DNA of 64,000 nucleotides from Halobacteriovorax sp. HLS (GTDB lineage Bacteria > Bdellovibrionota > Bacteriovoracia > Bacteriovoracales > Bacteriovoracaceae), in assembly GCF_004006665.1 (NCBI RefSeq), contig NZ_QOCL01000001.1:496001-560000 (forward strand), written 5' to 3'. Positions 26,660-42,558 of this stretch are shown one piece after another (position 1 is the stretch's first letter; each line of letters begins with the position of its first letter). The notes beneath the pieces were generated by a model that was not told where the DNA came from, ran no database searches, and saw only the letters and a list, made by a program, of their open reading frames with translations. The translations under genes and the position numbers were made by a program.

Positions 26660-27166
26660 ATGAATAATATTCTTGAACAATTAGATAGAGAAGGCTTCAT
26701 ATTTAAACAATATGACCCCTCTATTATCGACTTTCACGACTTAAGCTCTTCTATATCACGACTGAAGTCTTATATTGAGGAGATCATTTCCATTAGCGGT
26801 GAAAGCTTATTTTATGATATCGACACAATAGAATATAAGCAACAGATAAAACCCCATTATCATGTAATCCCAGGAACCTTTCAAGTTGTTGCTTGGATTC
26901 CAGAAGATAATTTCGAAGGTAGAAAATTTATTTTCGGGACTCAAAAGAGTTTAAATACAACAACTCCGAAACTTGGATACTTCTGTATCATGAAGCCTAA
27001 TGATCCTCACTTTATACACGGTGTAACGTCTCTTCAATCGAAGACTTCAATTAGATCTATAGGATTTTCGAGTCTCATAAAAAAGGTTGAAGGTAATCAA
27101 GATATTTTTGCTCAAAATCCCCCTACTCTCTTCAAAGATATTCCAATTGAAAGTCTAATCAATTGA
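26660..27166 (+). CDS. small Fe/2OG-oxygenase-like protein (H-x-H type)
   Basis: 168 residues, clearly related to the protein at 39266-39766 and more distantly to the one at 28122-28652. The likely metal site is His66 and His68 (KPHYHVIPGTF) and His120 (HFIHGV), with Arg132 (SIRSIGF) as the co-substrate anchor. The body, VVAWIPEDNFEGRKFIFG, is a jelly-roll phrase typical of 2OG oxygenases. H-x-H in place of H-x-D is unusual. Its end overlaps the convergent gene by 12 bases. Confidence 0.7.
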   Translation: MNNILEQLDREGFIFKQYDPSIIDFHDLSSSISRLKSYIEEIISISGESLFYDIDTIEYKQQIKPHYHVIPGTFQVVAWIPEDNFEGRKFIFGTQKSLNTTTPKLGYFCIMKPNDPHFIHGVTSLQSKTSIRSIGFSSLIKKVEGNQDIFAQNPPTLFKDIPIESLIN

Positions 27167-28129
27167 AGGCCAACTAGGACTCCAAAGATAATTTGTAAGA
27201 AGTACTATTTCATTTTTCTTACGCAATTTTTCAACTTTATGAACAAACATAGGGTTAAGAGTATTCATTAGTATTACCATTGAGTCAGCAATTTGAATCT
27301 TGTCTATACTAGAAACTCTATCATCAGAAACACTTTCAAAAGGATTTGGAATACTGGGTTGCTCAGCTGGAGACATATCCAGTGCCTCCTTACTAAAATC
27401 TAAAAAATCTTCTCGTTTACCAACAAGTAGTTCCCTCCCCTCAATAGGTTTTTCTTTAGCAAAGTAAATGAAGAACATGTAATGAAGTCTTGAAAAATAG
27501 TCCATATGAAAACTGTAGGGACCGTGTGTACTTTCTAAGTCGTCCTTATCATAAATATATTTAACAATATCTGAAGTTTGTAGTTGATGAGCATTAATAT
27601 GAAAATTCCCTTGAGGGATCTGAGAAACACATTGCCTGGTAATCTCTTTCATATAGTCAGGACCTCTATGTAACTCGGGCCTATCGTAATCAGCTAACGT
27701 TGCAAAGTAAGCATGATAAATAGATTTAGACATATTAAGTTCTTTATTAATACCATGAGGTATAAAAGCTTCATTAAGGGCTTGCAAAGAGAGAGTATCA
27801 TCGACTTGAATATTATTCAAAACACAGTAACCTTTCTCTGCAACTGACTTCCATTCAATAGAGGGCGTAACAGGCTTCAACTCCATCTCTAAGAACATTT
27901 TAGGGATAACAACTCCAACCCTATCAATTCCATCTACAGGGTAATACGTTTCATCATAAAAGTAACCATTGCTATCAACACCAATAAAGAGATGAGAGCT
28001 GTTTTCAGTATAAACTAAAGGACCAAAAATATTTCCATAGAACTCATAAAGCCCTGTTTCTTTGAAAGTATTAAAATTGTTAAACTTACCTTTTCGATAT
28101 CTAAAATAGTTATTTATTTCTTTAATCAT
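27155..28129 (-). CDS. predicted Fe(II)/2-oxoglutarate oxygenase, large type
   Basis: 324 residues from ATG 28129, which overlaps the upstream stop as ATGATTAA; a longer frame reaches 28186. The putative facial triad is His208-x-Asp210 (SFHMDYF) and His297 (NPMFVHKVEK). EGRELLVGKRED between them matches the jelly-roll strand seen in the small family. No distal Arg is visible. It is the last gene of a five-gene oxygenase operon (30407 to 27155). The N-terminal 150 residues, with many aromatics, are unassigned and may bind substrate. Confidence 0.62.
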   Translation of the reverse strand: MIKEINNYFRYRKGKFNNFNTFKETGLYEFYGNIFGPLVYTENSSHLFIGVDSNGYFYDETYYPVDGIDRVGVVIPKMFLEMELKPVTPSIEWKSVAEKGYCVLNNIQVDDTLSLQALNEAFIPHGINKELNMSKSIYHAYFATLADYDRPELHRGPDYMKEITRQCVSQIPQGNFHINAHQLQTSDIVKYIYDKDDLESTHGPYSFHMDYFSRLHYMFFIYFAKEKPIEGRELLVGKREDFLDFSKEALDMSPAEQPSIPNPFESVSDDRVSSIDKIQIADSMVILMNTLNPMFVHKVEKLRKKNEIVLLTNYLWSPSWPSID

Positions 28130-28652
28130 TTCTAAAATCTTCCTTTCTTCCAAGGCCACCTGTGATAGAAATAATTTGATGATCACTAATAAGCTTATCT
28201 ACCCCGTGAAATACATCAGGGTCCGTAGTATCAAGAAAGCAAACAAGTCCATTAGTTGGACGAACCTTCTGTCTTCCTAAGTGACGTTGGATTAAAAAGT
28301 CTCTTCCAACAAAATCCTCACTCTTGCTCAACCAAAGAATTACTTCAAATGGACAAAACTGAGAAACTTCATTATGCATCTCAATCCACTCCCCCTGAAT
28401 CATTTTATTAATATCAAAATGAAAGTCGTTTAAAGTTTGAATTAAATATTCATCCTCTGTACATGTCTTAAAAAAGTCGATCAACTCAAGTCTTAAGCTG
28501 TCTTCTACATCTCTTATCCTATAGCGTAACTCACCATCACAAACACCAAAGTCTTTAAATTCGAGAGACCAAATTTTATCTTCTAAGGCGCTAGGTAGCT
28601 TCTTTTGAACAAAGCAGAATTTATCAAGCAATATACTATTATAAGAAATCAA
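28122..28652 (-). CDS. small Fe/2OG-oxygenase-like protein (H-x-E type)
   Basis: 176 residues of the same family as 26660 and 39266. The metal motif reads His93-x-Glu95 (EMHNEVSQF) with distal His149 (DVFHGVDK). The Arg conserved in the two relatives is Gln159 here (HQIISIT). VILWLSKSEDFVGRDFLI is the shared core strand. It starts at TTG 28652, overlapping the previous TGA. Fourth gene of the oxygenase operon. It may be altered in co-substrate use or inactive. Confidence 0.65.
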   Translation of the reverse strand: MISYNSILLDKFCFVQKKLPSALEDKIWSLEFKDFGVCDGELRYRIRDVEDSLRLELIDFFKTCTEDEYLIQTLNDFHFDINKMIQGEWIEMHNEVSQFCPFEVILWLSKSEDFVGRDFLIQRHLGRQKVRPTNGLVCFLDTTDPDVFHGVDKLISDHQIISITGGLGRKEDFRND

Positions 28653-29239
28653 AATTTCATCACTCCATCTGTCTCAATATCCCACTCATCTACATCTTTA
28701 TCCAACAATGATTCTTTAAACATAAAATTCATTCTCAAAAAATATCTATCACCCCCTGAAATTCCTACGACTTGGTGTGGAAAATGATAACTGGCGGGAA
28801 AAATCACAACTTTTCCAATCTCTGGAGCAATTACTACTTTTTGAATAGGAAAACAAAGCTGTCCACCTTCGAACTCTTTATCGTTTAAATATAACAAGCA
28901 AACAAAAGGTCTTTGCTTTATCGCTTCTTCACCTACAATTACCTGTGTATCAAAGTGAAGGTCGTCATATGCTCCAGTGGGCTGCTTAATGATACCAATC
29001 CCTAAAAGAGATACATCACTTATAGTAAGCAAGCTTCCAAAGTTGTTAAAATATTCTTCAACTAGAGGCTTTAGCTTGAGCTCAAGATCAACGCAGAGTT
29101 TTTCAAGTTCGCACTGTCCTACTTTATCTCTCCAAAACACAAGATCAGAATAGTTTTCAGAATACATATTCCTAATCTTAATTATATCTAAGCATTCTGT
29201 AGCAGAGAAAATATTAGGAAATTGCATTATATAATCCAC
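28649..29239 (-). CDS. prolyl 4-hydroxylase-like 2OG-Fe(II) oxygenase
   Basis: 196 residues of the P4H-like dioxygenase type. The triad is intact: His95-x-Asp97 (DDLHFDTQV) and His155 (YHFPHQV), with Arg165 or Arg169 (DRYFLRM) for 2-oxoglutarate. FVCLLYLND and GGQLCFPIQK are family strands. It starts at GTG 29239 (GGAG five bases upstream), sharing one base with the upstream stop. Third of three tandem paralogues. Confidence 0.85.
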   Translation of the reverse strand: MDYIMQFPNIFSATECLDIIKIRNMYSENYSDLVFWRDKVGQCELEKLCVDLELKLKPLVEEYFNNFGSLLTISDVSLLGIGIIKQPTGAYDDLHFDTQVIVGEEAIKQRPFVCLLYLNDKEFEGGQLCFPIQKVVIAPEIGKVVIFPASYHFPHQVVGISGGDRYFLRMNFMFKESLLDKDVDEWDIETDGVMKF

Positions 29240-29817
29240 TATATCTCCAATTCATCTACTTGATATGCATCGAAATCAATTTTCATTGTGATACGGCAAA
29301 CATGCTTGCTACCTTTTATAACTGGCATAGAGGTATGTGGATAAGAAAAATTACAAGGAAAAATAACGGCCTTCCCAAGCTCAGGAGAAACCTTAACATT
29401 CTGCACGGGAAAAAGTAATTCTCCTCCTTCTTCTACAGCTGTTAAATAAACAAGAATAACAAAAGGCTTAATAATAATATCTCGATTCTTTACTTTTACC
29501 AGTTCCCAATCATAGTGTAGCTCTGTAAACTCTCCAAACTCATCATTCAAAAAACCAATATGAGAAATAGATATAGATTCTAAAGGTAATTGTCCCAGGA
29601 ATCTATCTGAGTATTCTTTTAATGATGGTTTAATTCTTTGTTCTAGTAATTCAAACTCTTCGGCCCAATCTAAATTGGAAGAGAGTTCGTCAGAGTAAAC
29701 TAAATAATCAGTTAATCTATTATTAACTGTTGAATATTTTCTTCTCTTGTCTAGAATTCTTTGACATTGTTCACGAGAGAGAAAATCTTTCCATTCAACG
29801 ACAGCGCTATAACTCAT
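29239..29817 (-). CDS. prolyl 4-hydroxylase-like 2OG-Fe(II) oxygenase
   Basis: 192 residues, second of the tandem trio. The triad is His101-x-Asp103 (ELHYDWEL) and His161 (FSYPHTS); Lys171 or Arg175 (SKHVCRI) is the likely 2OG anchor. GGELLFPVQN is the shared strand. The start shares one base with the upstream stop. Substitutions outside the active site differ from both neighbours, suggesting separate target residues rather than dosage. Confidence 0.85.
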   Translation of the reverse strand: MSYSAVVEWKDFLSREQCQRILDKRRKYSTVNNRLTDYLVYSDELSSNLDWAEEFELLEQRIKPSLKEYSDRFLGQLPLESISISHIGFLNDEFGEFTELHYDWELVKVKNRDIIIKPFVILVYLTAVEEGGELLFPVQNVKVSPELGKAVIFPCNFSYPHTSMPVIKGSKHVCRITMKIDFDAYQVDELEI

Positions 29818-30407
29818 TAGAAATAATCCTTAGACGTCTTAGTACTATTAATTATACTGTCCTTCTTGAAATAATAGGCCATTCTTAATACATATCTATT
29901 GGCCCCAATCGCTGGATTTGTTAAATGCGGAAACATGAACGATGTAGGAAAGATTAACCCTAACCCTACTTTTGGCTTTATAGATGTCTTCTGAATAGGA
30001 AAAATAAGTTCACCACTTTCAAAGTTATCATTAAGATAAATTAAAATAGCGAAGTTTCGAATATACTCCTTATCATTCATGTAAGAGATTTCGGCATCGT
30101 AATGATACGGAATATTAAAATTCTCTTGATGCTCCATTATGGAAATATGCTTTAAATAATAAGACTCACAGTTTAGTAATGTTGAATATGATAAATAACT
30201 CTCAACTATTGGCCTACACTTTTCGTTTAAATCTAGAAATAAGTCACTCCAATGCCTCTCCTGTGGAATACTCCATTCTTTAACTATTCCATGAAGATTT
30301 GCATCTGATCGCTTTGTATCAATATGACTTTCTTTGAGATAATTCTCTATAATAGATTCACAATTCTTTGGAGATAAAATATTTTCATATTCTTGAATAA
30401 AACTCAT
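29817..30407 (-). CDS. prolyl 4-hydroxylase-like 2OG-Fe(II) oxygenase
   Basis: 196 residues, first gene of the five-gene oxygenase operon. The triad is His102-x-Asp104 (PYHYDAE) and His161 (FMFPHLT), with Arg171 or Arg175 (NRYVLRM). The N-terminal half (about 1-90) is helical and probably contacts the substrate. Like its two tandem neighbours it has no export signal, so modification would be cytoplasmic. Confidence 0.85.
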   Translation of the reverse strand: MSFIQEYENILSPKNCESIIENYLKESHIDTKRSDANLHGIVKEWSIPQERHWSDLFLDLNEKCRPIVESYLSYSTLLNCESYYLKHISIMEHQENFNIPYHYDAEISYMNDKEYIRNFAILIYLNDNFESGELIFPIQKTSIKPKVGLGLIFPTSFMFPHLTNPAIGANRYVLRMAYYFKKDSIINSTKTSKDYF

Positions 30408-30518: not shown

Positions 30519-31592
30519 ATGATTACAAGAGATAATTTACAATTCTACGTACGTACAGCTGAAAACTGTAACTTGAACTGCAAACACTGCTTCACATCGG
30601 GACGCAATGGCGATCCTTCAGTATTTAATGCTGAAAATACATCTAATTATATTCAAAAAATTGTAAAAACCTTCAATGTATTGAACTTTAGAGTTGTCTT
30701 ACATGGAGGAGAACCAATGTTAGCTCCAATTAGTGAGCTAAATTGTTTTATTGACCAGCTTCAATCCATCCCACAATTAAACAGTATTGGAATCCAAACA
30801 AATCTGGCCTACGAACTAAGCGAAGAAAAACTCACTTTTTTCAATAATCATTTTAAGCAATATGGAATAGGTACCTCTTGGGATGCAGATCTGCGCTTTG
30901 GACTAGTTGACTTCAAGAGCAAGACTAAGGTTTTAAAACTTTGGGAAAATAATGTTAGAACCTTAATAGAAAATGGACATAACTTAACATTATCTATCTG
31001 CCTATCTAAATATCTAATCGATCATTTTGAGCCAAGACAACTCATTGAATACGCTATTGACCTAGGTTTTCAAAATATTTTATTTGAAAGAATTACGGAA
31101 GATGGAAGCGCTATTACAAATAATTCTATCCGACCTTTGAATCTGCATCTTGATCGATGGCTCCATAAAATGTTTATTCAGACCTTAGAGAATCAATATG
31201 AAAAAAGAATCAACAACTTATTTCTTGGAGAGCTTGCGACATCCTATATTTCTAAAACTCATACTGCTAACAGATGTCGAAACTGTGAATTAAGCCTAAT
31301 AACAATTGGTGCAGCTGGAGACTTATCCGGATGTCCAAACTCTGCAAAGGAAGTCACATGGGGATATATTAATGAACCTATTTCCACCCCCCTCTCTTCA
31401 TCAAACAGGTTAAATGCAATCTGTAAGGAAAAAATACGAAACCCAATTTGCGAACAATGTGATATTAGAGAAATTTGCAACAGTGATTGCTACAAACTTC
31501 CATGGCAAGATAAGATTTGTGCAGCTCCAAAACTTATTATGAAAGAAATGAAAAGAAATAATAACATAAACGATTACCAGAGATTGCTATGA
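30519..31592 (+). CDS. radical SAM/SPASM peptide maturase-like protein
   Basis: 357 residues. The radical SAM motif is Cys17-x3-Cys21-x2-Cys24 (NCNLNCKHCFTSG), followed by VVLHGGEP. The C-terminal SPASM-like region holds many cysteines (CRNCEL, SGCPNS, CEQCDIREICNSDCY), enough for auxiliary Fe-S clusters. This is the layout of anaerobic sulfatase maturases and RiPP maturases; no sulfatase is nearby. First gene of a three-gene operon with an unknown 151-residue protein and a JmjC-like oxygenase. Confidence 0.88.
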   Translation: MITRDNLQFYVRTAENCNLNCKHCFTSGRNGDPSVFNAENTSNYIQKIVKTFNVLNFRVVLHGGEPMLAPISELNCFIDQLQSIPQLNSIGIQTNLAYELSEEKLTFFNNHFKQYGIGTSWDADLRFGLVDFKSKTKVLKLWENNVRTLIENGHNLTLSICLSKYLIDHFEPRQLIEYAIDLGFQNILFERITEDGSAITNNSIRPLNLHLDRWLHKMFIQTLENQYEKRINNLFLGELATSYISKTHTANRCRNCELSLITIGAAGDLSGCPNSAKEVTWGYINEPISTPLSSSNRLNAICKEKIRNPICEQCDIREICNSDCYKLPWQDKICAAPKLIMKEMKRNNNINDYQRLL

Positions 31593-32044
31593 AAGAATGG
31601 CATATTAGACATAAAATATTTCATCAAATCTTTAAAGATATGGACTTAGGAGACGATCTCTCTAAAGAAATAATAATAGAAGAACATGATGAAGACAGTA
31701 TTGTAAAAAGGGCGTTACAATACCCTCAAATACAAACAAAAGAATTATACTACCCAGGGAAATCGTTCTGTGTGGCCATAATATACGCTAAACTTCTAGA
31801 AAAACACTTTAAAGAAGACTTCTATGATTCTTTAAATGATGAGCGGCTTCTATATGAAAATGACCCATATTTCATACCTTATAATAAGGCCAAATCCACC
31901 TACGATAGAATTCTTTCAGAGTTTGATTGGGATCTATTCGAGAACCTAAACAAAGCTTCCGAGAATTTCAATAAAACCTGTGAATACTTTGATAAGGAAT
32001 TTCTCTTACATGAAGACACTAGAATGTTCGCCCCTACTAAGTAG
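31589..32044 (+). CDS. small protein between radical SAM and JmjC-like genes, unknown
   Basis: 151 residues, not recognised. It is acidic and helical, with aromatic-rich phrases YPGKSFCVAIIY and NDPYFIPYNKA and no signal peptide. It starts by ATGA overlap with the radical SAM gene and overlaps the next gene by 35 bases, so it is tightly coupled. It could be a chaperone or recognition subunit for the maturase, but nothing in the sequence proves this. Confidence 0.7.
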   Translation: MKEWHIRHKIFHQIFKDMDLGDDLSKEIIIEEHDEDSIVKRALQYPQIQTKELYYPGKSFCVAIIYAKLLEKHFKEDFYDSLNDERLLYENDPYFIPYNKAKSTYDRILSEFDWDLFENLNKASENFNKTCEYFDKEFLLHEDTRMFAPTK

Positions 32045-32564
32045 TGATGATATTGAAAAAATTTTTAAAAGTAGTCATCTCTTTTCATTAAATAGCTTTT
32101 ACACTATTGACCCTACAACTAGAACCTATGATGCAAATATAAAGTTTGAATCCTATATTGAGTACTCTACCTTTATTAGAAAGTCTTTTCTTGCAGGAGA
32201 AACTATTATAGTAAAAAATCTAGAGAACTTTACACCAAAAATTAGAATGAGATGTTCTGAACTATCCTCCAATGTAGATGTTCACATGTACCTTGTGCCA
32301 CCAGAAGGAAGAAGTTCTTTCCAATACCATATCGACGATCGAGATGTAGAAATAGAAATGATCTATGGAGAAAAGGATTTTTTTATAAAAGAAAATGAAC
32401 GAGAAAAAGTGGTTACTTTAAAGAAAAGTGACAGACTTACTATTCCAAAAGGAACTTTCCATAAAGCAGTACCAAAAGGGCCTTCATGCTTACTCAGCTT
32501 TGGAATATTGGAACCAATTAACTACGACATACCAGGAGGAATCACCCAAGAGGATCTATTTTAA
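32010..32564 (+). CDS. JmjC/cupin_8-like 2OG oxygenase (ribosomal-oxygenase type)
   Basis: 184 residues from ATG 32010 (AAGGA ten bases upstream); a GTG at 31980 gives a longer frame. The metal residues are His107-x-Asp109 (QYHIDDRDV) and His151 (KGTFHKAV). The stretch around LVPPEGRSS, then HIDDRDVEIEMIYGEKDF, closely follows the JmjC fold of YcfD/NO66-type oxygenases, which hydroxylate Arg or His. It is shorter than those enzymes and lacks their dimerisation and winged-helix parts. It overlaps the convergent radical SAM gene by nine bases. Confidence 0.75.
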   Translation: MKTLECSPLLSSDDIEKIFKSSHLFSLNSFYTIDPTTRTYDANIKFESYIEYSTFIRKSFLAGETIIVKNLENFTPKIRMRCSELSSNVDVHMYLVPPEGRSSFQYHIDDRDVEIEMIYGEKDFFIKENEREKVVTLKKSDRLTIPKGTFHKAVPKGPSCLLSFGILEPINYDIPGGITQEDLF

Positions 32565-33482
32565 ATTTTTATACCAATCTAGAAGATGAAAAAAGCCATT
32601 ACATGACAGGTCTAAACTCTCAACCTTCCTATAATGCTCTGTTAAACAATTCCCCAAATATTCGCACTTAGAACAAATTTCGTTCCTCTGAACTCTAGCA
32701 TGTTCTAGTCGCTCCCATTTCTTATAATCATCTAATCTATCCAACTCTAAAAAATATTCATCTTCTTTTTCGTCAAACTCTAGAACAGCAAATTTTCCAT
32801 TTGGAGTTATATAGAGATGATCATCTGAAAAAGCATTTCTTTTCTTACTAAGTGAGTTTTCAATTTCTCTTTCATTTACAAACTCAAAATTCTTAACGAT
32901 ATCTGATTCAATCCACTTTTTCACAAACTCCTCAAAGTCTTTAAAACTAACCTCGAAAGAGTTCGCTTGATTGGTGGAATATGGCTTAATCTCGACACTT
33001 ACTACATTACCAATTGAATTAAATGTCGAAATCATTTTACTAACATCCATCTTCAACAATTTAGACGAAGCAAGCATAAGAATAGAAATTTCTTTATTAG
33101 TTGTTATTATATTTTGTAGAACTTTTTCAGAAGACTCTCTGGCTTCAAAATCAAAACTAACTGATAAAGAGACATGTTCTTTTAAAAAGAATGGATGTAC
33201 TTGATAGAGATTTGTTACTATATTTATACTGGGGTCGAAAGCTTCATACAAAATTTCATCCAACTCTTCTAAATATTCATTAGATAAAAGAGATATTTCA
33301 CCGCCATAGAGATCAACATGATCTACACTATGGTTTGAATCCTTCAGTTCCTTAATTAACTGCCGCAGCTTAGTTAAAGGAAGAGTCAATGGATCAGATA
33401 ATTGACTCTTAGTAAGATAACAAAAGTCACAACGAAAGTTACATTGATAAAGCGGATTAATGGACAGATTTAAAAAACTCAC
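32556..33482 (-). CDS. radical SAM protein with C-terminal Cys cluster
   Basis: 308 residues. Cys14-x3-Cys18-x2-Cys21 (CNFRCDFCY) opens the barrel and YGGE is the SAM-contact motif. The C-terminus holds C-SKC-EYLGNC and a later Cys, a reduced SPASM or twitch-like site. It starts at GTG 33482, overlapping the previous TGA. It is shorter than its neighbours and may act as a partner of the upstream SPASM protein. Confidence 0.84.
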   Translation of the reverse strand: MSFLNLSINPLYQCNFRCDFCYLTKSQLSDPLTLPLTKLRQLIKELKDSNHSVDHVDLYGGEISLLSNEYLEELDEILYEAFDPSINIVTNLYQVHPFFLKEHVSLSVSFDFEARESSEKVLQNIITTNKEISILMLASSKLLKMDVSKMISTFNSIGNVVSVEIKPYSTNQANSFEVSFKDFEEFVKKWIESDIVKNFEFVNEREIENSLSKKRNAFSDDHLYITPNGKFAVLEFDEKEDEYFLELDRLDDYKKWERLEHARVQRNEICSKCEYLGNCLTEHYRKVESLDLSCNGFFHLLDWYKNLK

Positions 33483-34560: not shown

Positions 34561-35169
34561 ATGACGAATTTTCTTGGCGAATTAAGAAATAAAACGATTC
34601 TATCTCAAGATATCGTTTACAAACTACAGCAACCTCTACGTAATGCAATGACCGATTCATCTGAAGTTCTTTGGACCGCGACAGACTTTGGATCATTATG
34701 TACAAACGTTCCGTCAGACTACACACTTGCTAACGCTACAGGAAATGACGTTTTTTCAAAATCATCACTGCCTGGCCCAAGTTCATCGTCACTTTCAGGA
34801 ACAACAGCTTCTGCTGTTATAAGCCTAGTTAGAACATATATGAACTATTACGCCAAAGTTCAAAAAATTAAGATTAGAAATACCGGAGTTGGAAATGCAC
34901 AATCTCCTATGACGCTGATCGCATATTTACAAACAGATAGAGGCTCAACTACATCAAATGTTCTCAACGCAGTAGATACAGCGGCCAGTGCTAATAATAT
35001 TGCAACTGGTCAAGTTATTACAGCAGAGAACCTAAACAATTTTATTAACTCTTGTTCAAATATATGGCGTGATTATTGTATTAATAATGTTAAACATACT
35101 TACTCTGTAAATTATTGTCACTCTAATCATTGTAGTCACTCGAATCATGGATCGAGAGGAAGAAGATAA
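34561..35169 (+). CDS. candidate modified precursor protein with His-triad tail
   Basis: 202 residues, unrecognised. The first 160 are Ser/Thr/Asn/Ala-rich and look like a structural or filament-type domain (ITAENLNNFINSC resembles tail-fibre phrases). The last 24 residues are different: after Cys165 and Cys173 comes Tyr185-Cys186, then His at 187, 190, 193 and 196, Cys191, several Ser and Asn, and a Gly-Arg end (GSRGRR). Two of the triads read His-x-Ser (190-192, 196-198). There is no signal peptide. It leads the operon with two unknown proteins, two radical SAM enzymes and an oxygenase, as a RiPP-like or proteusin-like substrate would. Confidence 0.75.
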   Translation: MTNFLGELRNKTILSQDIVYKLQQPLRNAMTDSSEVLWTATDFGSLCTNVPSDYTLANATGNDVFSKSSLPGPSSSSLSGTTASAVISLVRTYMNYYAKVQKIKIRNTGVGNAQSPMTLIAYLQTDRGSTTSNVLNAVDTAASANNIATGQVITAENLNNFINSCSNIWRDYCINNVKHTYSVNYCHSNHCSHSNHGSRGRR

Positions 35170-35924
35170 TGGAAAATTTAAAAACTATACCAATGTCTAC
35201 GGAAGAGATCCAAGAGATATTTCTTAATAGTGATCTTCATTATAATATCGATTTAAAGAATTCCACTTTAAAAGGTGAAGCATTTGTTACATATATTGCT
35301 AATATGCAAATCAATTGCTCACTTGCAGATATCGACCAAACACCTAAAGAAGAGAAGTTTGAAGTTTTAAAGTACTTCCTTAATTTTAGACAAACAATAA
35401 AGTGTGACACCCTTTTGCATACAACGGCCCTACTTCTATTAAAAGCACTTAGGGCCCCTGTGGATCAATCAAGATCTTGGCTATCTGAAGAAGAGTCTGA
35501 AGAGTTTTTACAAAATAACAAAGAGCTAATGCTTCAGGCTGCGTTATTTATAAATTCCGCTCCCGTTTTTGTTGCGGCCTTCAATAAAGATTTTAAAGAA
35601 GAAATCTTTACTCAAGCATGTGAAGATGGAGAAATACAAGTAATTGATGATCCTGAAATTGTAGGAATCAACCTTATCAATTTATTCAGTATTCCAGACT
35701 TTACAGAGACCTTCATAGCTCAATATGACAACGTAATGCCTCCTGAAACCAAACAACTAAGATACTATAAAGCACAGGTTGAAAGGCTACAATATGACAA
35801 GAAAACTGTCTTTGATATTTTCTTAGGTCTAAAAGAGAAATCCTTCTTAATGTCTTTTTCTCACTTACTTCTTAACAATAGTAGTGAAAAAGAGGAACTG
35901 AGCTTACTTGAAAGCTACATCTAA
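35169..35924 (+). CDS. conserved island protein, function unknown
   Basis: 251 residues, acidic and alpha-helical, with no recognisable domain. Its start shares one base with the stop of the candidate substrate gene (TAATG), so the two are translationally coupled. It has few cysteines and no metal-binding pattern, which argues for a scaffold, chaperone or substrate-recognition role rather than catalysis. No clear RRE (PqqD-like) fold could be seen by eye. Confidence 0.72.
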   Translation: MENLKTIPMSTEEIQEIFLNSDLHYNIDLKNSTLKGEAFVTYIANMQINCSLADIDQTPKEEKFEVLKYFLNFRQTIKCDTLLHTTALLLLKALRAPVDQSRSWLSEEESEEFLQNNKELMLQAALFINSAPVFVAAFNKDFKEEIFTQACEDGEIQVIDDPEIVGINLINLFSIPDFTETFIAQYDNVMPPETKQLRYYKAQVERLQYDKKTVFDIFLGLKEKSFLMSFSHLLLNNSSEKEELSLLESYI

Positions 35925-35926
35925 GA

Positions 35927-37039
35927 ATGATTTGCTTAGCTGATAAGGTTTACTTAACTTACGCAGAAAGTTCTATAGGTCCTGACAATGCAGAAAATGT
36001 AGCCGACCAATACGTTCAAATTATTGATCGTGGCCTAGTTGATATTCAGAACCACTTTTTTCAAAAAAATAGAATTCATTATTCTAAAAATATTACACAA
36101 CTCTTATCTGAACAAAGTTTTTCGGAATTCTTTGATTCACTTATATCTAAAAATGAAAAAGTGTATATTTATGCAGATGAGAAGTCCTTTTGCGAATTTT
36201 TTATAAAATGGTTTAAAGGAATATTTCCAAAAGCAAACTGTGAAACTCTTTATCATATATTTCAAAGCTATTCTGACTATCAAAGACTACTACCTAATAG
36301 ACGTAAAGTTTATCTAGATATTGATAATGATAGTAGGCATATTCCCGTTCAAGAAATTTTGCCACTATACTGGAAAAAATCACTAGAAGAATTCAGAGGA
36401 CTTTTTGAACTATACTCTTCTTTTGAAATACCTATGCCTATTAAATTAAGAGTGTCTAATGAAGTTCAACTTATACAATATATTTTAAATAAGGAATCAT
36501 ACTTAACTTCAAATATGGCACTAGCATTTGCTAGGCTTTATAAAATTGCATTTATGAAAGAGTTTCTAGGTCTTAAAAGAACCTGTATTAGAAAGCTTTA
36601 CACATTAGCTAAGACTGATCATTCTTTAAGCTTTAAATTCACAAGCAGCTCATCAATATACGAACAACTAAGTCAAAATAAGAAATTAAACTTCTTACTC
36701 GATAACTCTTTTGACCAAGAAGATGAAAAATCCTTTGATAGCTTTATGAAGCTTGAACAACATATTAATCAATTAAACACTCTAATTGAAATCGATATGT
36801 TAATTTCTGACAAGACTGACAATCCTTGTATTTCTGGATACTTAGAAAATGGCAAACACCCAAAACCACTAGAGCTTATCGCTGTCGAAATTGAACAAAT
36901 AAGCCCTTATGAAATTCTTAAAAGTTCAGTACAAGATAATGAATTAAATATTTTTCTCGTGCAATCTATTCTATCATTGAAGAATGCTGGTAATAATGAT
37001 TCTCTACTAAATCAGCTTAACATGGAATTTGAAATTTAA
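35927..37039 (+). CDS. conserved island protein, function unknown
   Basis: 370 residues, two bases after the preceding gene. The N-terminus (ICLADKVYLTYAESSIGPDNAE) is strand-rich and the remainder helical, rich in Leu, Phe, Tyr and Lys. No catalytic motif, membrane segment or signal peptide is seen. It sits directly before the SPASM maturase gene, which suggests a substrate-presenting or accessory subunit. I do not recognise the family. Confidence 0.72.
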   Translation: MICLADKVYLTYAESSIGPDNAENVADQYVQIIDRGLVDIQNHFFQKNRIHYSKNITQLLSEQSFSEFFDSLISKNEKVYIYADEKSFCEFFIKWFKGIFPKANCETLYHIFQSYSDYQRLLPNRRKVYLDIDNDSRHIPVQEILPLYWKKSLEEFRGLFELYSSFEIPMPIKLRVSNEVQLIQYILNKESYLTSNMALAFARLYKIAFMKEFLGLKRTCIRKLYTLAKTDHSLSFKFTSSSSIYEQLSQNKKLNFLLDNSFDQEDEKSFDSFMKLEQHINQLNTLIEIDMLISDKTDNPCISGYLENGKHPKPLELIAVEIEQISPYEILKSSVQDNELNIFLVQSILSLKNAGNNDSLLNQLNMEFEI

Positions 37040-37040
37040 T

Positions 37041-38162
37041 ATGTATCATAGAGACTTTGAACAAACTGATTCTCAAAAGAAAATGTCTTTAATTGTTAAG
37101 CCTACAGAGGCCTGTAACTTTTCTTGTGACTTTTGCAGCTCAACCGAATTGGTTGAAGACAAAAAAGAACGACTAGAGTTAAAAAGAATTTATGAGTTCT
37201 TAGAGAGATTTCCTGAAACAGATAGAATTTTTGTTGTTGGAGGAGATCCTTTAATGATGTCTCCTAAATATTATTTAGAACTCATTAATCATCTCGAAGA
37301 ACATAACTATCCTGCTCTCATTTCTATGACGACAAACTTGTGGGATTTCTATAAAAAGCCTGAAAAATGGACCGCGATTTTGGCCCATCCAAGAGTTGAA
37401 GTAGGAACCTCTTTTCAATATGGAGAAGGTAGAAAGATAACAAAAGATCTAGTTTTTACAGAGTATATGTTTCGTCTAGTCGTTAAGAAATTTAAAAAGT
37501 ATATTCCACATAAAGAACTATGCTTTCTAGCCGTTGTGAACAAAGAAAATGAACACCTCGCTATCGACCATGTATACTTGGCCAAAGATATGGGTATGCA
37601 ATGTAGACTAGTCTATGCAAATAAATCGGGTCTTTCTGGTGAACCATATCCTCTTTCTAAGCTATATAAAATTTTTATTAAGATTTGGAAGCTAGGTCTT
37701 GTAGAATATGAGCAAACAACCTTATCTATAATTGATAAGCTCGTAGGAGTTGAAGTCGCTTGCCCACTTTCTAGAAATTGTGACCACTGGATGAGATCTC
37801 TAAATCCAGATGGGAGATACTTCACTTGTGGTCCACTTAATGATGACCTTGATCCAGAAAATGAAATTGATTTTGATAAAGAGGTTATAAAGGGCGAGAA
37901 GTTTCACCTTCCAATGCAGATGAATCCAAAAAACCAATACCTTAAACAAGAGTGTTTTGGATGCGAAATGTTCCAAGTTTGCAACGGTTGTCGTAAGCAT
38001 ATCAAAGATTTAAAAGATTCTAATATGGTCGAAGAACACTGTACCAATATGAAGTCCATTATTGGAGAACTTAAAGAGATGTCTAATGATGAAGACTTAC
38101 TAATTATGCAAAAGGAAATAGATCACTTAAGTAGAGAAAATGAAAAAGTTACTTATCAATAA
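37041..38162 (+). CDS. radical SAM/SPASM maturase, paralogue of the protein at 33479
   Basis: 373 residues from ATG 37041; TTG 37029 is an alternative start. Cys25-x3-Cys29-x2-Cys32 (CNFSCDFCSS), VVGGDPL, and a full SPASM set: CPLSRNCDHW, FTCGPLNDDL, ECFGCEMFQVCNGCRKH and a final EEHC. About 30 helical residues trail the SPASM region. Shared phrases with the minus-strand copy include TNLWD, VEVGTSF and KPT..CNFSC. It probably carries out the main radical modification on the substrate encoded at 34561. Confidence 0.9.
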   Translation: MYHRDFEQTDSQKKMSLIVKPTEACNFSCDFCSSTELVEDKKERLELKRIYEFLERFPETDRIFVVGGDPLMMSPKYYLELINHLEEHNYPALISMTTNLWDFYKKPEKWTAILAHPRVEVGTSFQYGEGRKITKDLVFTEYMFRLVVKKFKKYIPHKELCFLAVVNKENEHLAIDHVYLAKDMGMQCRLVYANKSGLSGEPYPLSKLYKIFIKIWKLGLVEYEQTTLSIIDKLVGVEVACPLSRNCDHWMRSLNPDGRYFTCGPLNDDLDPENEIDFDKEVIKGEKFHLPMQMNPKNQYLKQECFGCEMFQVCNGCRKHIKDLKDSNMVEEHCTNMKSIIGELKEMSNDEDLLIMQKEIDHLSRENEKVTYQ

Positions 38163-39285
38163 AAATGGCCCTAAGACGATAGAATCTTTTCTCCATGCTA
38201 AAAAAGACTTTTTACAACAAGAAGAAGTTTTGAATAGCATCTTAAAAGAAAAGGCACCTCAGTATACAGAAATTGAAGTTTCATTCTTTCAGCTTTGTGA
38301 ACTTCACTGTAGGTTCTGTTGGCAGGATAGTTATGACCCTACTGGTATTACAACAATTGTCAGTAAGGCCCAGACAGTACTAAACTACCTTAAGGATCAA
38401 AAAGACTCACTTCGAGATACGATTCAAGTTCATCTTCTTGGTGGAGAACTCTTTGAAGATAGTAATGATTACTACTCTCAATATTTTGATTTTATAACTA
38501 TCATTAAAGATTATTGTGATACGAACCTACCAGAGAAAAAACTTCTATTTGTTTTCTTAACAAATATGAATTTTCAACTTGAAACAACAAAATCAAAACT
38601 CGAAGTTTTCTTAAATTCACTAGCTGAAAATGGTACTAATTTTATACTTACTACCTCCTGGGACCCAAGCGGTCGTCCCTTAAAAGGAGAGATAAATACA
38701 AAATTTCATTCAAATATTACCTATTTTAAAAATTATCTATCCGAAATAACCTTCGTACTGACAAAGCCCACTATCAACAAACTACTTAATAATCAGTATG
38801 AATATCTACAGCTACTCGTTGATGAAGGGTTCACAATTGACTTTGACTACTATATGCCCACAACTAATGCCGAATCACTTATGCCAAGTGATTGGGATCT
38901 ATTGAATGCATTTCGAATGCTCATTAAGACATTTCCAAATATTAGAAAGCTAAAGGCCTGGACACAAAATATTAATGCTCCTACAAAGTTAACATGTGCA
39001 AGCTTAAGTAAAATCACAATATTACCTGATGGTACAATTACTAATTGTAGACATCTCGATTACAGTGATGAAAACTTCTCGACTAAAATAATTAATGAGT
39101 CTAACAGCTCGATGATATTTAATTTTATTTCAAAAAAAGAATGTCTCTCCTGCTCTTACTTTGAACAGTGTCCGTTAAGCTGTTTTCTTATGTCAGACAG
39201 TAAACACTTCAGCTCTAAAAAAGAGTTAGATGAGTGCTTTTACAAAACTCTCTTTAAAGAAAAGAATGAACAGAGACCTGTATAA
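38140..39285 (+). CDS. radical SAM protein, second type in the operon
   Basis: 381 residues. Cys53-x3-Cys57-x2-Cys60 (CELHCRFCW) after a 50-residue N-terminal extension; LLGGE is the SAM-contact motif. The SPASM-like end includes KLTCASLSK, TNCRHLDY, ECLSCSYFEQCPLSC and a last DECFY. Trp in place of Tyr/Phe after the third Cys is less common. It overlaps the upstream maturase by 23 bases and the small oxygenase downstream by 20. It is not closely similar to the 33479/37041 pair, so it probably does a different reaction. Confidence 0.87.
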   Translation: MKKLLINKNGPKTIESFLHAKKDFLQQEEVLNSILKEKAPQYTEIEVSFFQLCELHCRFCWQDSYDPTGITTIVSKAQTVLNYLKDQKDSLRDTIQVHLLGGELFEDSNDYYSQYFDFITIIKDYCDTNLPEKKLLFVFLTNMNFQLETTKSKLEVFLNSLAENGTNFILTTSWDPSGRPLKGEINTKFHSNITYFKNYLSEITFVLTKPTINKLLNNQYEYLQLLVDEGFTIDFDYYMPTTNAESLMPSDWDLLNAFRMLIKTFPNIRKLKAWTQNINAPTKLTCASLSKITILPDGTITNCRHLDYSDENFSTKIINESNSSMIFNFISKKECLSCSYFEQCPLSCFLMSDSKHFSSKKELDECFYKTLFKEKNEQRPV

Positions 39286-39766
39286 ACAAATTCAAGAAGA
39301 AGGCTTCGTGTTTAAAACCTTTGAGTCGACTACGGAGTTTAAAAAACTTGCCCTACATTCATCTCCAGATGATGAAGTACTCTTAGGCCATATTCATAGA
39401 ATACTAGAATCTTTCTTTGTTCCTATAAATAATTTACAAATAGTCTTTGAAGATTTTAAACAAAATGACTCAAATGATCTACACACCCATTTGATTGCAG
39501 CAGATTATCAGGTACTCATCTGGGTAACAGAAGACTCTGATTTTTCAGGAAGAGACTTCCTTTACGAGAAAGTACCATCACAGACAAAACGCTTTCGGCC
39601 TAGTAATGGTGATATTTGTTTTATGAAGACAAATGATTTACGGTTTCGCCACGGAGTATCTACATTAAAATCAGATTCACATATTCGTACAATAATTATA
39701 AGTGTGAATTGTAACGCCAAAAATGGAGAACATTTAACTGTCTCTCAAAGTCTTGATTCAATTTAA
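39266..39766 (+). CDS. small Fe/2OG-oxygenase-like protein (H-x-H type)
   Basis: 166 residues from ATG 39266, chosen because the paralogue at 26660 aligns from this Met (EEGFVFKTFES against REGFIFKQYDP); ATG 39230 is also in frame. The predicted metal site is His73 and His75 (DLHTHLIAAD) and His129 (RFRHGVS), with Arg141 (HIRTIII). VLIWVTEDSDFSGRDFLY is the shared core. Last gene of the substrate operon, so it probably acts on the same product. Confidence 0.72.
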   Translation: MNRDLYKQIQEEGFVFKTFESTTEFKKLALHSSPDDEVLLGHIHRILESFFVPINNLQIVFEDFKQNDSNDLHTHLIAADYQVLIWVTEDSDFSGRDFLYEKVPSQTKRFRPSNGDICFMKTNDLRFRHGVSTLKSDSHIRTIIISVNCNAKNGEHLTVSQSLDSI

Positions 39767-40125
39767 CTAAGAGAAATCCATCCCATATCTGGACCGGTGT
39801 ATTGAAGATAAATTTTTTCACCAGTTAAGTGAGAAAATAATTCCTTCATTTTGATCTGCCCCTGCTTGGAGTTGATCCTCTCATTTCCAGGATCAATAAT
39901 ACGATTACTAAAAAGCCTTGATAATCTTCCTGCTTCTATTTCAACTATAGATACAAACGGCACAGGCTCTACGGGAAGAACAATTGCCCCTTTTTTCTTT
40001 ATATCTTTTGCCGCAACAACCTCTGTCCCTTTCCCATACGAAGACTTTGGAACAAATGTTGTAACGAACATAGCTGAAATAATCGATAAGAACCCACGTC
40101 TTTCTAGCTTTTCTTCTTCTTTCAT
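39763..40125 (-). CDS. small exported protein with Tat-type signal
   Basis: 120 residues from ATG 40125 (AGAG upstream; TTG 40143 possible). The N-terminus carries twin arginines and a hydrophobic stretch (ERRGFLSIISAMFVTTF), matching a Tat signal and suggesting export of a folded or cofactor-bearing protein. The mature part of about 90 residues is basic, without recognised motifs or cysteines. It follows the pilin-S74 gene by five bases and would be co-expressed with it. Confidence 0.65.
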   Translation of the reverse strand: MKEEEKLERRGFLSIISAMFVTTFVPKSSYGKGTEVVAAKDIKKKGAIVLPVEPVPFVSIVEIEAGRLSRLFSNRIIDPGNERINSKQGQIKMKELFSHLTGEKIYLQYTGPDMGWISLS

Positions 40126-40130
40126 AATCT

Positions 40131-41324
40131 CTACTTTATGCAAATTTTAGAGTTTGGTGAAATCTCACATATAGCCTGCTGCATCTCATCCACCCTCTTA
40201 CGTAAAATTTTATTCTCTTCATGAAGCTCTTTAACAGCTTGGATAGCAACTGCCGTTAATTGAGGATATTTTACAAGAAGAACGCCACTCGTTCTATTTT
40301 TAACAACAAGACTAGGATATACCTTCTCTAAATCCTGGGCCAATACGCCAATATCTCTTCTATCATCTGCCTTCCATTTAAAACGTACTCCGCTCAACTT
40401 CTCTAAATCTTTAAGTACATTTTCTAATGGATGAATATTTCTCTTTAGTCTCTTATCAGACTGCATTGCAATGTACTTTCCATTAGCAACTGTAATATGC
40501 TCATTAAAAAGTGCTGTTCCTGTAAATGTTGAATTACCCGATACTGTCATTCGAGCATTCAATGTAATATTATCTGTCGTAGCACTATCACCTATAACCG
40601 TTGTATTAACTGTAGGAGATGCGGCTAGACTCTCCGTTCCTTTAAATAAATAACGAGCATCTAAATCAGTGATCAGGCCATCAATATATCTTTGCGATAC
40701 TGCTTGTTGCTGAGCAGCTGCATCATTAGGAATTGCGGCAATGCCAGGGTATGGAACAAGGTCGCAACTCTGAGAGGCAGAATTGAATGTCCCTCCAATA
40801 TTTTCACAAGAGTTCTTTGTAGCGCCCGCTGCACTATTAAAACAACCAACAAAGTTATCGGCCAAATCTGTAACGACAGAAAGAGTTACTACTTTTCTAA
40901 GGTTTTGCGCTCCCTGTGCAACATTGCTTGTTTTCTGGATACCTATAACTAAATCAAAAGTACCCACCTTCGAAGTTCCATCACTGGCCAAAGATATATT
41001 TTCAACATCTAAACCTGTAAGAATAACTTTTCTATTACCATACTGAGATCCCACAACAAAGACATCAGCTGCATTTGAATTTTGAATACTACCTACACTA
41101 GTATTTGCAGCAAGATTAATTCCTGTAAATGTATTCTCACAAGCCTTTTCATTTGTTAACGTTTGAGCTATTCCATTGGTGACCAAGGTAACTTCAGATT
41201 GAGTTTCAAATGTTTTTTGAGACTTCATCATATTATCTACAAGCCTCATTACGCCAAGAGAAACGACTCCTAGCAAGCCTGCGGCAACAACAACTTCTGC
41301 AAGAGAAAAACCTTTATTATTCAT
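40131..41324 (-). CDS. type IV prepilin-like protein fused to a peptidase S74 chaperone domain
   Basis: 397 residues. The N-terminus is a class III prepilin signal: short leader MNNKG, then FSLAEVVVAAGLLGVVSLG with Glu at position +5, to be cut after Gly5. The middle (about 60-280) is Ala/Ser/Thr-rich with six or so Cys. The last 109 residues are a peptidase S74 intramolecular chaperone, as in phage tail spikes: Ser289 in SDKRLKRNI, the GVLAQDLEKVYP strand, and a C-terminal coiled coil. Self-cleavage before Ser289 would release the coiled-coil part. This is an unusual join of pilin anchoring and spike trimerisation. Confidence 0.85.
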   Translation of the reverse strand: MNNKGFSLAEVVVAAGLLGVVSLGVMRLVDNMMKSQKTFETQSEVTLVTNGIAQTLTNEKACENTFTGINLAANTSVGSIQNSNAADVFVVGSQYGNRKVILTGLDVENISLASDGTSKVGTFDLVIGIQKTSNVAQGAQNLRKVVTLSVVTDLADNFVGCFNSAAGATKNSCENIGGTFNSASQSCDLVPYPGIAAIPNDAAAQQQAVSQRYIDGLITDLDARYLFKGTESLAASPTVNTTVIGDSATTDNITLNARMTVSGNSTFTGTALFNEHITVANGKYIAMQSDKRLKRNIHPLENVLKDLEKLSGVRFKWKADDRRDIGVLAQDLEKVYPSLVVKNRTSGVLLVKYPQLTAVAIQAVKELHEENKILRKRVDEMQQAICEISPNSKICIK

Positions 41325-41328
41325 AAGC

Positions 41329-41883
41329 CTATTTTACCTTTACCCAATGTCTATTATTCACTTCAATTCTAACCGTTTCCGAACTAATACTTTCAGCGAT
41401 TTCTTTTTTCTTATAAATGCCAACAATGCGTTCTGGGTAATCTCTCTTTTCCTCAAGAGTCATTTCTGTCAAGAATCCATTCTCATCATTTGTTAAAGGA
41501 GTTCCACACTCATATTCTTTATCTACATAAGCAAGAACCCAACCGGCAACGGCTATTGGAACCTCTTTAGGATAGCGCCCTTGACCCACTCCAAAACCAA
41601 AAGTATCTGAAGCAATTCCAATTACTGACTTTTGGCATCTCTTATCCGCGATCATTGCCCCTTCTATTGTATCGACGTAACACTTTCCGTACTCAAGATC
41701 CCCCATGAGTAATTGAAAGTCAGCAACATCATTCCAAACAGAATTCCATACTTTCTCTGCAATAAAACTTCCTGTCACGGAGTTAGAGCTAGTCGAAGAT
41801 AATGCGAGATCATTACCAGTTGTCCAATTTGTGACAGATCCATTTGTAGAGTTTATAGATATACTTTTTAAAACAGTAGGCAT
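41329..41883 (-). CDS. phage tail-fibre-like protein
   Basis: 184 residues. A Ser/Thr/Asn-rich start is followed by WNSVWNDVADFQLLMGDLEYGKCYV and SVIGIASDTFGFGVG, then PIAVAGWVLAYVD and YPERIVGIYKK. This order resembles the C-terminal autoproteolytic or shaft domains of phage tail proteins (peptidase G2-like), an identification by eye only. There is no signal peptide or pilin leader. It sits five bases upstream of the pilin-S74 gene, so it may be a partner subunit of a displayed filament or a target of the hydroxylases. Confidence 0.6.
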   Translation of the reverse strand: MPTVLKSISINSTNGSVTNWTTGNDLALSSTSSNSVTGSFIAEKVWNSVWNDVADFQLLMGDLEYGKCYVDTIEGAMIADKRCQKSVIGIASDTFGFGVGQGRYPKEVPIAVAGWVLAYVDKEYECGTPLTNDENGFLTEMTLEEKRDYPERIVGIYKKKEIAESISSETVRIEVNNRHWVKVK

Positions 41884-41937: not shown

Positions 41938-42558
41938 CTATGATAGTTGAGAAGATTTTGTTTTCGATGTCACATAGCCTTGTGCTGAAGCAATTTTTTC
42001 AACATTTAGAAAATATGAGAACCTCATTAAATATCTCGTCTGATCTAATGGCGGCGTAGTTTTATGTGGAAATAATTGATTCGTAGGAAAAATTATTAGT
42101 GAACCTGTAGTAGGTTTAAAAACTTGTTTTTGAAGTGGAAAGATTATTTCACCTCCACTTTCATTTTCATTCAAATAAAGTAAAACAAGAAAATCTCTTT
42201 GATGGATATCATTTGCCCCATCATAAACAAAAGGAGCGTCAAAGTGCTCAGGAGAAAACTCACCAACCCTTTGCTCCCAAAAGACGCCATGACTAAAATT
42301 ATAGTCCTCTCGATAATTAAATAATGGTTCCAAATAATTTTCTATTTCAGTTGAGATTTTTAAATCTAGCGACTCTAAATCATTTGACCAATCTTGAGAA
42401 AGATCATCTCTTTTTAAGTACAATTCTCTGATTGTCTTATCTCTATCTTGAACTTTGCGAGTATCAATATCAGATAAATGCTTATCTAAGTTATATTTTG
42501 ATATCAATTGATTACATTGATCTTTAGTTAAAAAATCTTCAACAAAACGAATATACAT
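41938..42558 (-). CDS. prolyl 4-hydroxylase-like 2OG-Fe(II) oxygenase
   Basis: 206 residues, the fourth P4H-like paralogue of the island. The triad is His105-x-Asp107 (SPEHFDAPF) and His165 (QLFPHKT), with Arg175 or Arg179 (TRYLMRF). GGEIIFPLQKQ matches the tandem trio at 28649-30407. It is the first gene of the unit with the tail-fibre-like, pilin-S74 and Tat-signal genes, which ties a hydroxylase to the surface components. Confidence 0.86.
   Translation of the reverse strand: MYIRFVEDFLTKDQCNQLISKYNLDKHLSDIDTRKVQDRDKTIRELYLKRDDLSQDWSNDLESLDLKISTEIENYLEPLFNYREDYNFSHGVFWEQRVGEFSPEHFDAPFVYDGANDIHQRDFLVLLYLNENESGGEIIFPLQKQVFKPTTGSLIIFPTNQLFPHKTTPPLDQTRYLMRFSYFLNVEKIASAQGYVTSKTKSSQLS

Follow-up and report, generated by a model that had tools for sequence, protein, structure and literature searches.

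A histidine-rich tail encoded among radical SAM genes

In the chromosome of Halobacteriovorax sp. HLS, a 202-residue protein with a histidine at every third position near its C-terminus is encoded among genes for radical SAM enzymes. Is this C-terminus the substrate of the enzymes, and does the arrangement belong to a known system? The locus was analyzed within a stretch of 64,000 nts (the window; contig NZ_QOCL01000001.1, positions 496,001 to 560,000). The protein (SUB, here the tail protein), its tail and the gene that follows are:

34561-35169 (+): tail protein, 202 aa, with a variable body (residues 1-185) and a conserved tail; modelled with AlphaFold
35116-35166 (+): C-terminal tail, residues 186-202, CHSNHCSHSNHGSRGRR, with a leading Cys, four H-x-[S/N] units and an RGRR end
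35169-35924 (+): ORF35169, a phrog_20767 member that immediately follows the tail protein and is the best marker gene for the module described below

The C-terminal letters of the ORF are KHTYSVNYCHSNHCSHSNHGSRGRR, positions 35107-35166 corresponding to residues 183-202. The original prediction had placed histidines at 187, 190, 193 and 196 in exact period three within residues 186-202, with two His-x-Ser and Cys191, and the sequence agrees in each respect. Following Cys186, the units are in order H-S-N, H-C-S, H-S-N and H-G-S, then RGRR; two are His-x-Ser (190-192 and 196-198) and two His-x-Asn (187-189 and 193-195), and the tail cysteines are Cys186 and Cys191. Shuffling the protein 200,000 times produced the pattern HxxHxxHxxH in 4 cases, and the tail protein is the only one of the 109 ORFs of at least 60 aa in the window to carry it. 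The gene is single-copy in the genome and its stop codon overlaps the start codon of ORF35169. Stronger evidence for the tail than this rarity came from its conservation.

The tail is conserved in phages and in Bdellovibrionota

The nearest relative of the tail protein, found in a genome of the same bacterial family (G009), is ~30% identical overall and ends in CHSSHSSHSSHSSRGRR; the cluster around its gene is also conserved. More distant relatives in two genomes of another genus (G113 and G119) end in YCHGNFPPPCHGSRGRR. When phage and plasmid collections were searched with the tail protein of the window or with one marine sequence, no match was obtained; named phages were reached by radical SAM queries and by the tail protein of another phage. 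A DNA pattern search of IMG/VR for CHGSRGRR followed by a TAA stop, which is biased toward the tail, returned 78 stretches, most of them encoding proteins of ~120-320 aa that end in CHxSCHxSCHGSRGRR, together with chance matches such as L050, L083 and Streptococcus mitis loci. As the tail is part of this pattern, we searched again with probes independent of it, and our conclusions rest on these unbiased probes, which were derived from ORF35169.

Two such probes were used. Firstly, an HMM of phrog_20767, the family of ORF35169, detected 17 of 368 genomes of Bdellovibrionota, and the tail protein was present at the locus in 16 of them, the exception (L141) having its locus near a contig edge. 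Secondly, an alignment of ORF35169 proteins (24 from phages and the one from the window) detected 80 viral loci, and a C-terminus of the form (CHx[SNA])3-R[GS]RR was found in 79, the 80th being cut by its own contig edge. The tail would have been discredited as a feature had relatives lacked it; it is kept in nearly all of them. Altogether the same tail and enzyme set were found in well over a hundred phage sequences, a phage connection absent from the original prediction. At L088 2242-2556 (-) the tail is aberrant (CNSNFICHSNCYTPPPKSRSRR), ORF35169 and the radical SAM genes being kept despite the drift of the tag.

The consensus of the family C-terminus is (C-H-x-[S/N/A])3-R-[G/S]-R-R. Among 51 representatives below 60% identity, the His and the Ser, Asn or Ala two positions further on are kept even where Cys is lost. 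The Cys is nearly invariant in phage tails but mostly lost in the window tail; the Cys spacers drop out in the window species and in G009, leaving a period of three. On these alignments, the spacing of the wider family is four (CHxS), and period three is a local variant of this species and one relative. The body deprived of the tail is still related between bacteria and phages (2e-11 to G009 and 3e-5 to phage L023, in a small database). Combined, these comparisons support the view that the C-terminal tail is a conserved module and that the rest of the protein evolves fast.

The tail protein belongs to a module of enzymes shared by phages and bacteria

The genes surrounding the tail protein in the window are:

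28649-29239 (-): 2OG-Fe(II) oxygenase (PF13640)
29239-29817 (-): probable 2OG-Fe(II) oxygenase, HYD motif in the sequence
29817-30407 (-): 2OG-Fe(II) oxygenase (PF13640)
30519-31592 (+): radical SAM 1, CNLNCKHC and SPASM-type cysteines; adjoins the tail protein upstream in most phage loci
31589-32044 (+): ORF31589, phrog_20737 family, a conserved part of the module
31980-32564 (+): JmjC_2/cupin oxygenase, PF08007 above the gathering score, H117-x-D119 ... H161; phage counterparts exist
32556-33482 (-): radical SAM 4, CNFRCDFC, up to 54% identity to phage versions
33479-34492 (-): radical SAM 3 paralogue, CNFSCSFC
35927-37039 (+): ORF35927, a weakly conserved module protein
37029-38162 (+): radical SAM 3, CNFSCDFC
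38140-39285 (+): radical SAM 2, CELHCRFC, in a 100/100 clade with that of G009
41938-42558 (-): 2OG-Fe(II) oxygenase (PF13640) of uncertain module membership

From radical SAM 1 onwards, the order is radical SAM 1, ORF31589, JmjC_2, radical SAM 4, the radical SAM 3 paralogue, tail protein, ORF35169, ORF35927, radical SAM 3 and radical SAM 2. In phage L047 a tail-fibre protein is followed by cupin/JmjC, radical SAM 1, tail protein, ORF35169, ORF35927, radical SAM 2, radical SAM 3, two 2OG-oxygenase-like ORFs, radical SAM 4 and ORF31589. The set common to phages and bacteria thus comprises the JmjC/cupin protein, radical SAMs 1-4, the tail protein, ORF35169, ORF35927 and ORF31589, and it adjoins tail-fibre genes. 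By BLAST against the 78 viral loci, many of which are short, radical SAM 1 and ORF35169 were each found in 57, radical SAM 2 in 48, radical SAM 3 in up to 37, JmjC in 30, radical SAM 4 in 29 and ORF31589 in 15. Among 73 phage loci, the tail protein is immediately preceded by radical SAM 1 in 48 and by a tail-fibre gene in 10, and it is immediately followed by ORF35169 in 52. The window carries H-x-[S/N/A] units ending in R-[G/S]-R-R with ORF35169 adjacent, as in the CHxS-tail module elsewhere; its radical SAM 1 is present but non-adjacent, 3 kb upstream of the tail protein. The cassette occurs in the isolated phages Agrobacterium Atu_ph07, Sinorhizobium Phosso, Burkholderia FLC6, FLC8 and SURPRISE13, and Pseudomonas pPa_SNUABM_DT01. 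Some phage loci (L024, L025 and L032) encode two tail proteins in tandem, together with six to eight radical SAM-like genes, within ~14 kb.

The bacterial copies lie in chromosomes of Bdellovibrionota, mostly near two genes which in the window are:

40131-41324 (-): fusion of a pilin-type N-terminus and a C-terminus of the phage tail-fibre type that includes a Peptidase_S74 chaperone (PF13884, PF07963; phage tail-fibre PHROGs at 2e-27)
41329-41883 (-): ORF41329, 184 aa, which co-occurs with the module among the 368 genomes of the phylum

ORF41329 was found in 20 of the 368 genomes, namely 15 of the 17 with the module versus 5 of the 351 others (Fisher 1e-20, uncorrected for kinship). The link of ORF41329 and of the pilin-S74 gene to the tail protein is one of co-occurrence only. 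A 13.8-kb IMG/VR 'virus' contig (L003, IMGVR_UViG_2883826669_000001) encodes a tail protein 100% identical to that of the window; it is probably a bacterial chromosome classed as viral.

Properties of the enzymes

The five radical SAM proteins that surround the tail protein in the window all keep CxxxCxxC and extra C-terminal cysteines, and the JmjC protein keeps its HxD...H triad. The match to the SPASM domain model is weak (24.1 bits vs 27), and none of the characterised equivalog models reaches its cut-off with the radical SAMs of the window, including those for cyclophane enzymes (YhhB 44.5 bits vs 445, FxsB 41.4 vs 370 and AmcB 32.6 vs 425). Five consecutive ORFs with HxD motifs occupy 27155-30407 (-); Pfam confirms a 2OG-Fe(II) oxygenase for 28649-29239 and 29817-30407, and ORFs 27155 and 28122 (-) had no match in the Pfam scan.

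Radical SAM 2 of the window (38140-39285) and of G009 (L004 8261-9337) form a clade of their own (100/100, branch 1.31), unlike the radical SAM 1 proteins of the same two genomes, which do not group. This possible co-variation between enzyme and repeat spacing is suggestive and amounts to one evolutionary event. When phage relatives of radical SAM 2 were sought for co-variation of tail and enzyme, only the window's own DNA matched. If tag spacing and radical SAM 2 subtype do change together, radical SAM 2 would be the reader of the repeat.

The tail lies outside a folded body and the protein is probably carried by virions

The AlphaFold model of a phage tail protein (mean pLDDT 84.9) has three long helices and long strands, and its last ten residues are below 50. 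The model of the window protein is weaker (mean pLDDT 65.4) and has a similar layout. In both, the tail is predicted with low confidence and outside the fold, as expected of an appendage available for modification. No relative of the tail protein was found in the PDB by fold or by sequence; in a viral model library, the best matches are phage proteins, including a 296-residue protein of Atu_ph07, which is the length of gp170.

In the jumbo phage Atu_ph07, the tail protein is FDI40_gp170, with the C-terminus FCHSSCHASCHNSRSRR, and gp164-169 and gp171 include enzymes of the cassette. In the description of this phage, ESI-MS/MS of particles assigned most virion proteins to CDS 31-76, 170-215 and 284-329 (PMC6102473). 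As gp215 is the major head protein both in the paper (PMC6102473) and in the record, the two numberings agree, and the virion cluster CDS 170-215 therefore begins exactly at the tail protein. From this cluster boundary as stated in the paper, we infer that gp170 is present in virions.

These data bear on the possibility that the protein is a long RiPP precursor, with the body as leader and the modified tail cut off as a free antibacterial, signal or metallophore. Radical-SAM RiPP clusters do have a similar look, the tail is short and rich in Cys and His, and the body diverges as a leader would. However, the body is confidently folded in the phage model (mean pLDDT 85) and, at ~120-320 aa, exceeds most leaders in length, the phage locus lies among tail-fibre genes, gp170 heads a cluster of virion proteins, and no transporter was found among the subset of window genes scanned with Pfam. 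A free peptide is thus unlikely.

A dedicated cassette may modify the tag

The tag, its conservation, its linkage to the cassette and the synteny of the module can be read directly from the sequences. As a conserved tail tightly linked to several radical-SAM genes is best read as their target, the label of putative substrate given to the protein in the original prediction holds; that the tag is the substrate of the cassette enzymes is well supported by this linkage and, in our judgement, likely. Our preferred reading of the whole, which we hold to be reasonably probable, is that ORF 34561 is a chromosomal member of a phage-type fibre- or tail-associated protein family whose tag is modified by a dedicated cassette and whose tip is displayed. 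The tag would consist of H-x-[S/N/A] units, Cys-separated in phages and Cys-poor in the window, ending in R-[G/S]-R-R. The cassette (radical SAMs 1-4, the JmjC/cupin oxygenase and often 2OG oxygenases) would modify it post-translationally, with ORF35169, ORF35927 and ORF31589 as likely substrate-handling partners. The SPASM radical SAMs would most likely join the His imidazole to the beta-carbon at i+2 (His-x-Ser/Asn/Ala), and the oxygenases would add hydroxyls. The product may be a rigid, cationic, exposed tip on a fibre, contacting the host in the case of phages or an encountered cell in the case of predatory bacteria; display on a fibre or virion seems somewhat favoured.

The cross-link chemistry is proposed by analogy. 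SPASM enzymes of known function link an aromatic residue to the beta-carbon of the second residue after it, and the cyclophane cross-links include Phe-Ser (MscB), C2(His)-Cbeta(Ala) (HaaB) and C2(His)-Cbeta(Arg) (YhhB) (PMC11002830). As in these triceptides, a SPASM-type radical SAM gene (here with a weak model match) adjoins a substrate with aromatic-x-residue units, and His-x-Ala and His-x-Arg are known targets (PMC11002830). The invariant H-x-[S/N/A], which is the part of the tag that survives loss of the Cys spacers in the window and G009, matches the i/i+2 motif of cyclophane radical SAMs, so that the geometry fits. In contrast to triceptides, whose precursors are peptides of bacterial RiPP clusters, a folded phage-type protein with three or four units and four or more radical SAMs is found here, and radical SAM scores fall far below the equivalog cut-offs. 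Cross-links within the H-x-[S/N/A] units of the tag are a tentative proposal. Points against the preferred reading include the equivalog scores below the cut-offs, the use of four enzymes for one tag, and the loss in the window of most of the Cys that is near-invariant in phages.

Alternatively, the tail may bind metal or act through its charge without covalent modification, RGRR binding phosphate-rich surfaces and the radical SAMs acting on, say, a glycan or fibre. The spacing of His and Cys suits metal, and phage fibre tips with an axial metal are known. Nevertheless, the linkage of tail and cassette is nearly one-to-one, H-x-[S/N/A] resembles known cross-linking motifs, and two genomes do without the Cys spacers but not without the H-x-[S/N] unit; this alternative is as improbable as the free peptide.

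It is less probable still that the genes are a prophage fragment devoid of bacterial function, left in the window by a phage host-recognition cassette in decay. The IMG/VR listing as viral of the 13.8-kb contig with the identical tail protein would fit, as would radical SAM 4, whose window version is closest to phage versions in a tree that does not resolve the direction of phage-bacterium transfer. On the other hand, the genes are intact, the flanks are ordinary chromosomal genes (acyl-CoA dehydrogenases, phosphoglucose isomerase, mutL, miaA), and the module occurs in several families of the phylum, mostly with the same pilin-S74 and ORF41329 partners.

The module differs from the His-Xaa-Ser system

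The periodic histidines had also suggested kinship with HxsA of the HxsA/HxsB/HxsC/HxsD system described by Haft and Basu (as cited in PMC9062424), and this part of the original prediction was not supported. The HxsA model TIGR03979 matched neither the window protein nor 28 phage members; its best hit in the genome (14.9 bits, cut-off 121.65) lies elsewhere. HxsD (TIGR03976) was not found in the genome, and the radical SAMs of the window reached 32-38 bits with HxsC (cut-off 267.9) and 24.4 bits with HxsB (cut-off 370). The window tail resembles the C-terminal His-x-Ser repeats of that system in part, two of its units being HxS and two HxN, and in both systems the protein is encoded beside radical SAM genes. 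They differ in that most members here have a C-H-x-[S/N/A] unit of period four and an R-[G/S]-R-R end, are phage-borne, and have JmjC, ORF35169 and ORF31589 as partner genes. Membership in the Hxs system, which the three-residue periodicity of His, the Ser residues and the nearby radical SAM genes had brought to mind, is rejected at the level of the curated models, all four of which fail, and is extremely improbable given the CHxS unit and the different gene set.

Relation to phage cassettes described previously

In descriptions of marine and jumbo phages, radical SAM genes usually appear under auxiliary metabolic or accessory genes. The radical SAM, cupin and 2OG genes reported for jumbo phages FLC6 and SURPRISE13 (PMC8066314, PMC11898562) are, in FLC6, the very same cassette, and the radical SAM cassettes of the pelagimyophage host-recognition cluster (PMC7029224) are likely the same. 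These papers list accessory genes and recognise no substrate, tail or system. In the searched literature, which omits most subscription journals so that an earlier description is possible, no published description of the system and no match to the string CHGSRGRR were found. The chances are about even that tailed phages and predatory bacteria share a previously undescribed modification system, with cross-linked histidine tips, virion maturation by at least four radical SAMs, and tag spacing changing together with the radical SAM 2 subtype. Many phage radical SAMs gain a specific, testable candidate substrate, a 16-17-residue tag at the C-terminus of a single protein. Should this tag be modified, phages would possess their own radical-SAM pathway for maturing an exposed virion protein, which would add a new layer to host recognition, and the same pathway would serve predatory bacteria next to pilus and fibre genes. 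The C-terminal signature helps to find such proteins, and the module offers a compact enzyme set for peptide cross-linking chemistry.

Fibre genes next to the module

Both S74 and G2-type fibre genes neighbour the module. The mosaic adhesive trimer (MAT) fibres of Bdellovibrio (PMC10769870) are likewise phage-like S74 fibre proteins in predatory bacteria, and the module adjoins a pilin-S74 fibre protein. The tail protein itself is not a MAT protein (S74 or trimeric beta-helix), as it had no S74 match and its alpha/beta model had no PDB match; radical SAM modification is not mentioned in PMC10769870. ORF41329 was considered as a Peptidase_G2-type fibre domain, which was rejected as Pfam, PHROGs and BLAST gave no support.

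Between ORF39230 and the pilin-S74 gene, 39763-40143 (-) encodes a 126-aa protein with a twin-arginine-like start (ERRGFL), and ORFs resembling it adjoin ORF41329 in L146, L147 and L148. These three loci have a sibling design, in which an ORF41329 homologue and many radical SAMs accompany a protein of 150-187 aa with a different C-terminal tail, for example CICNTDCACNAVCTCHNDCGCHY (L146 6806-7315 (-), L147 12365-12928 (+) and L148 9386-9838 (-)). To these loci is added phage contig L223, on which the protein encoded at 888-1676 (+) ends in CRSNCICDSDCACNAVCNCNNNCDCNYTQ.
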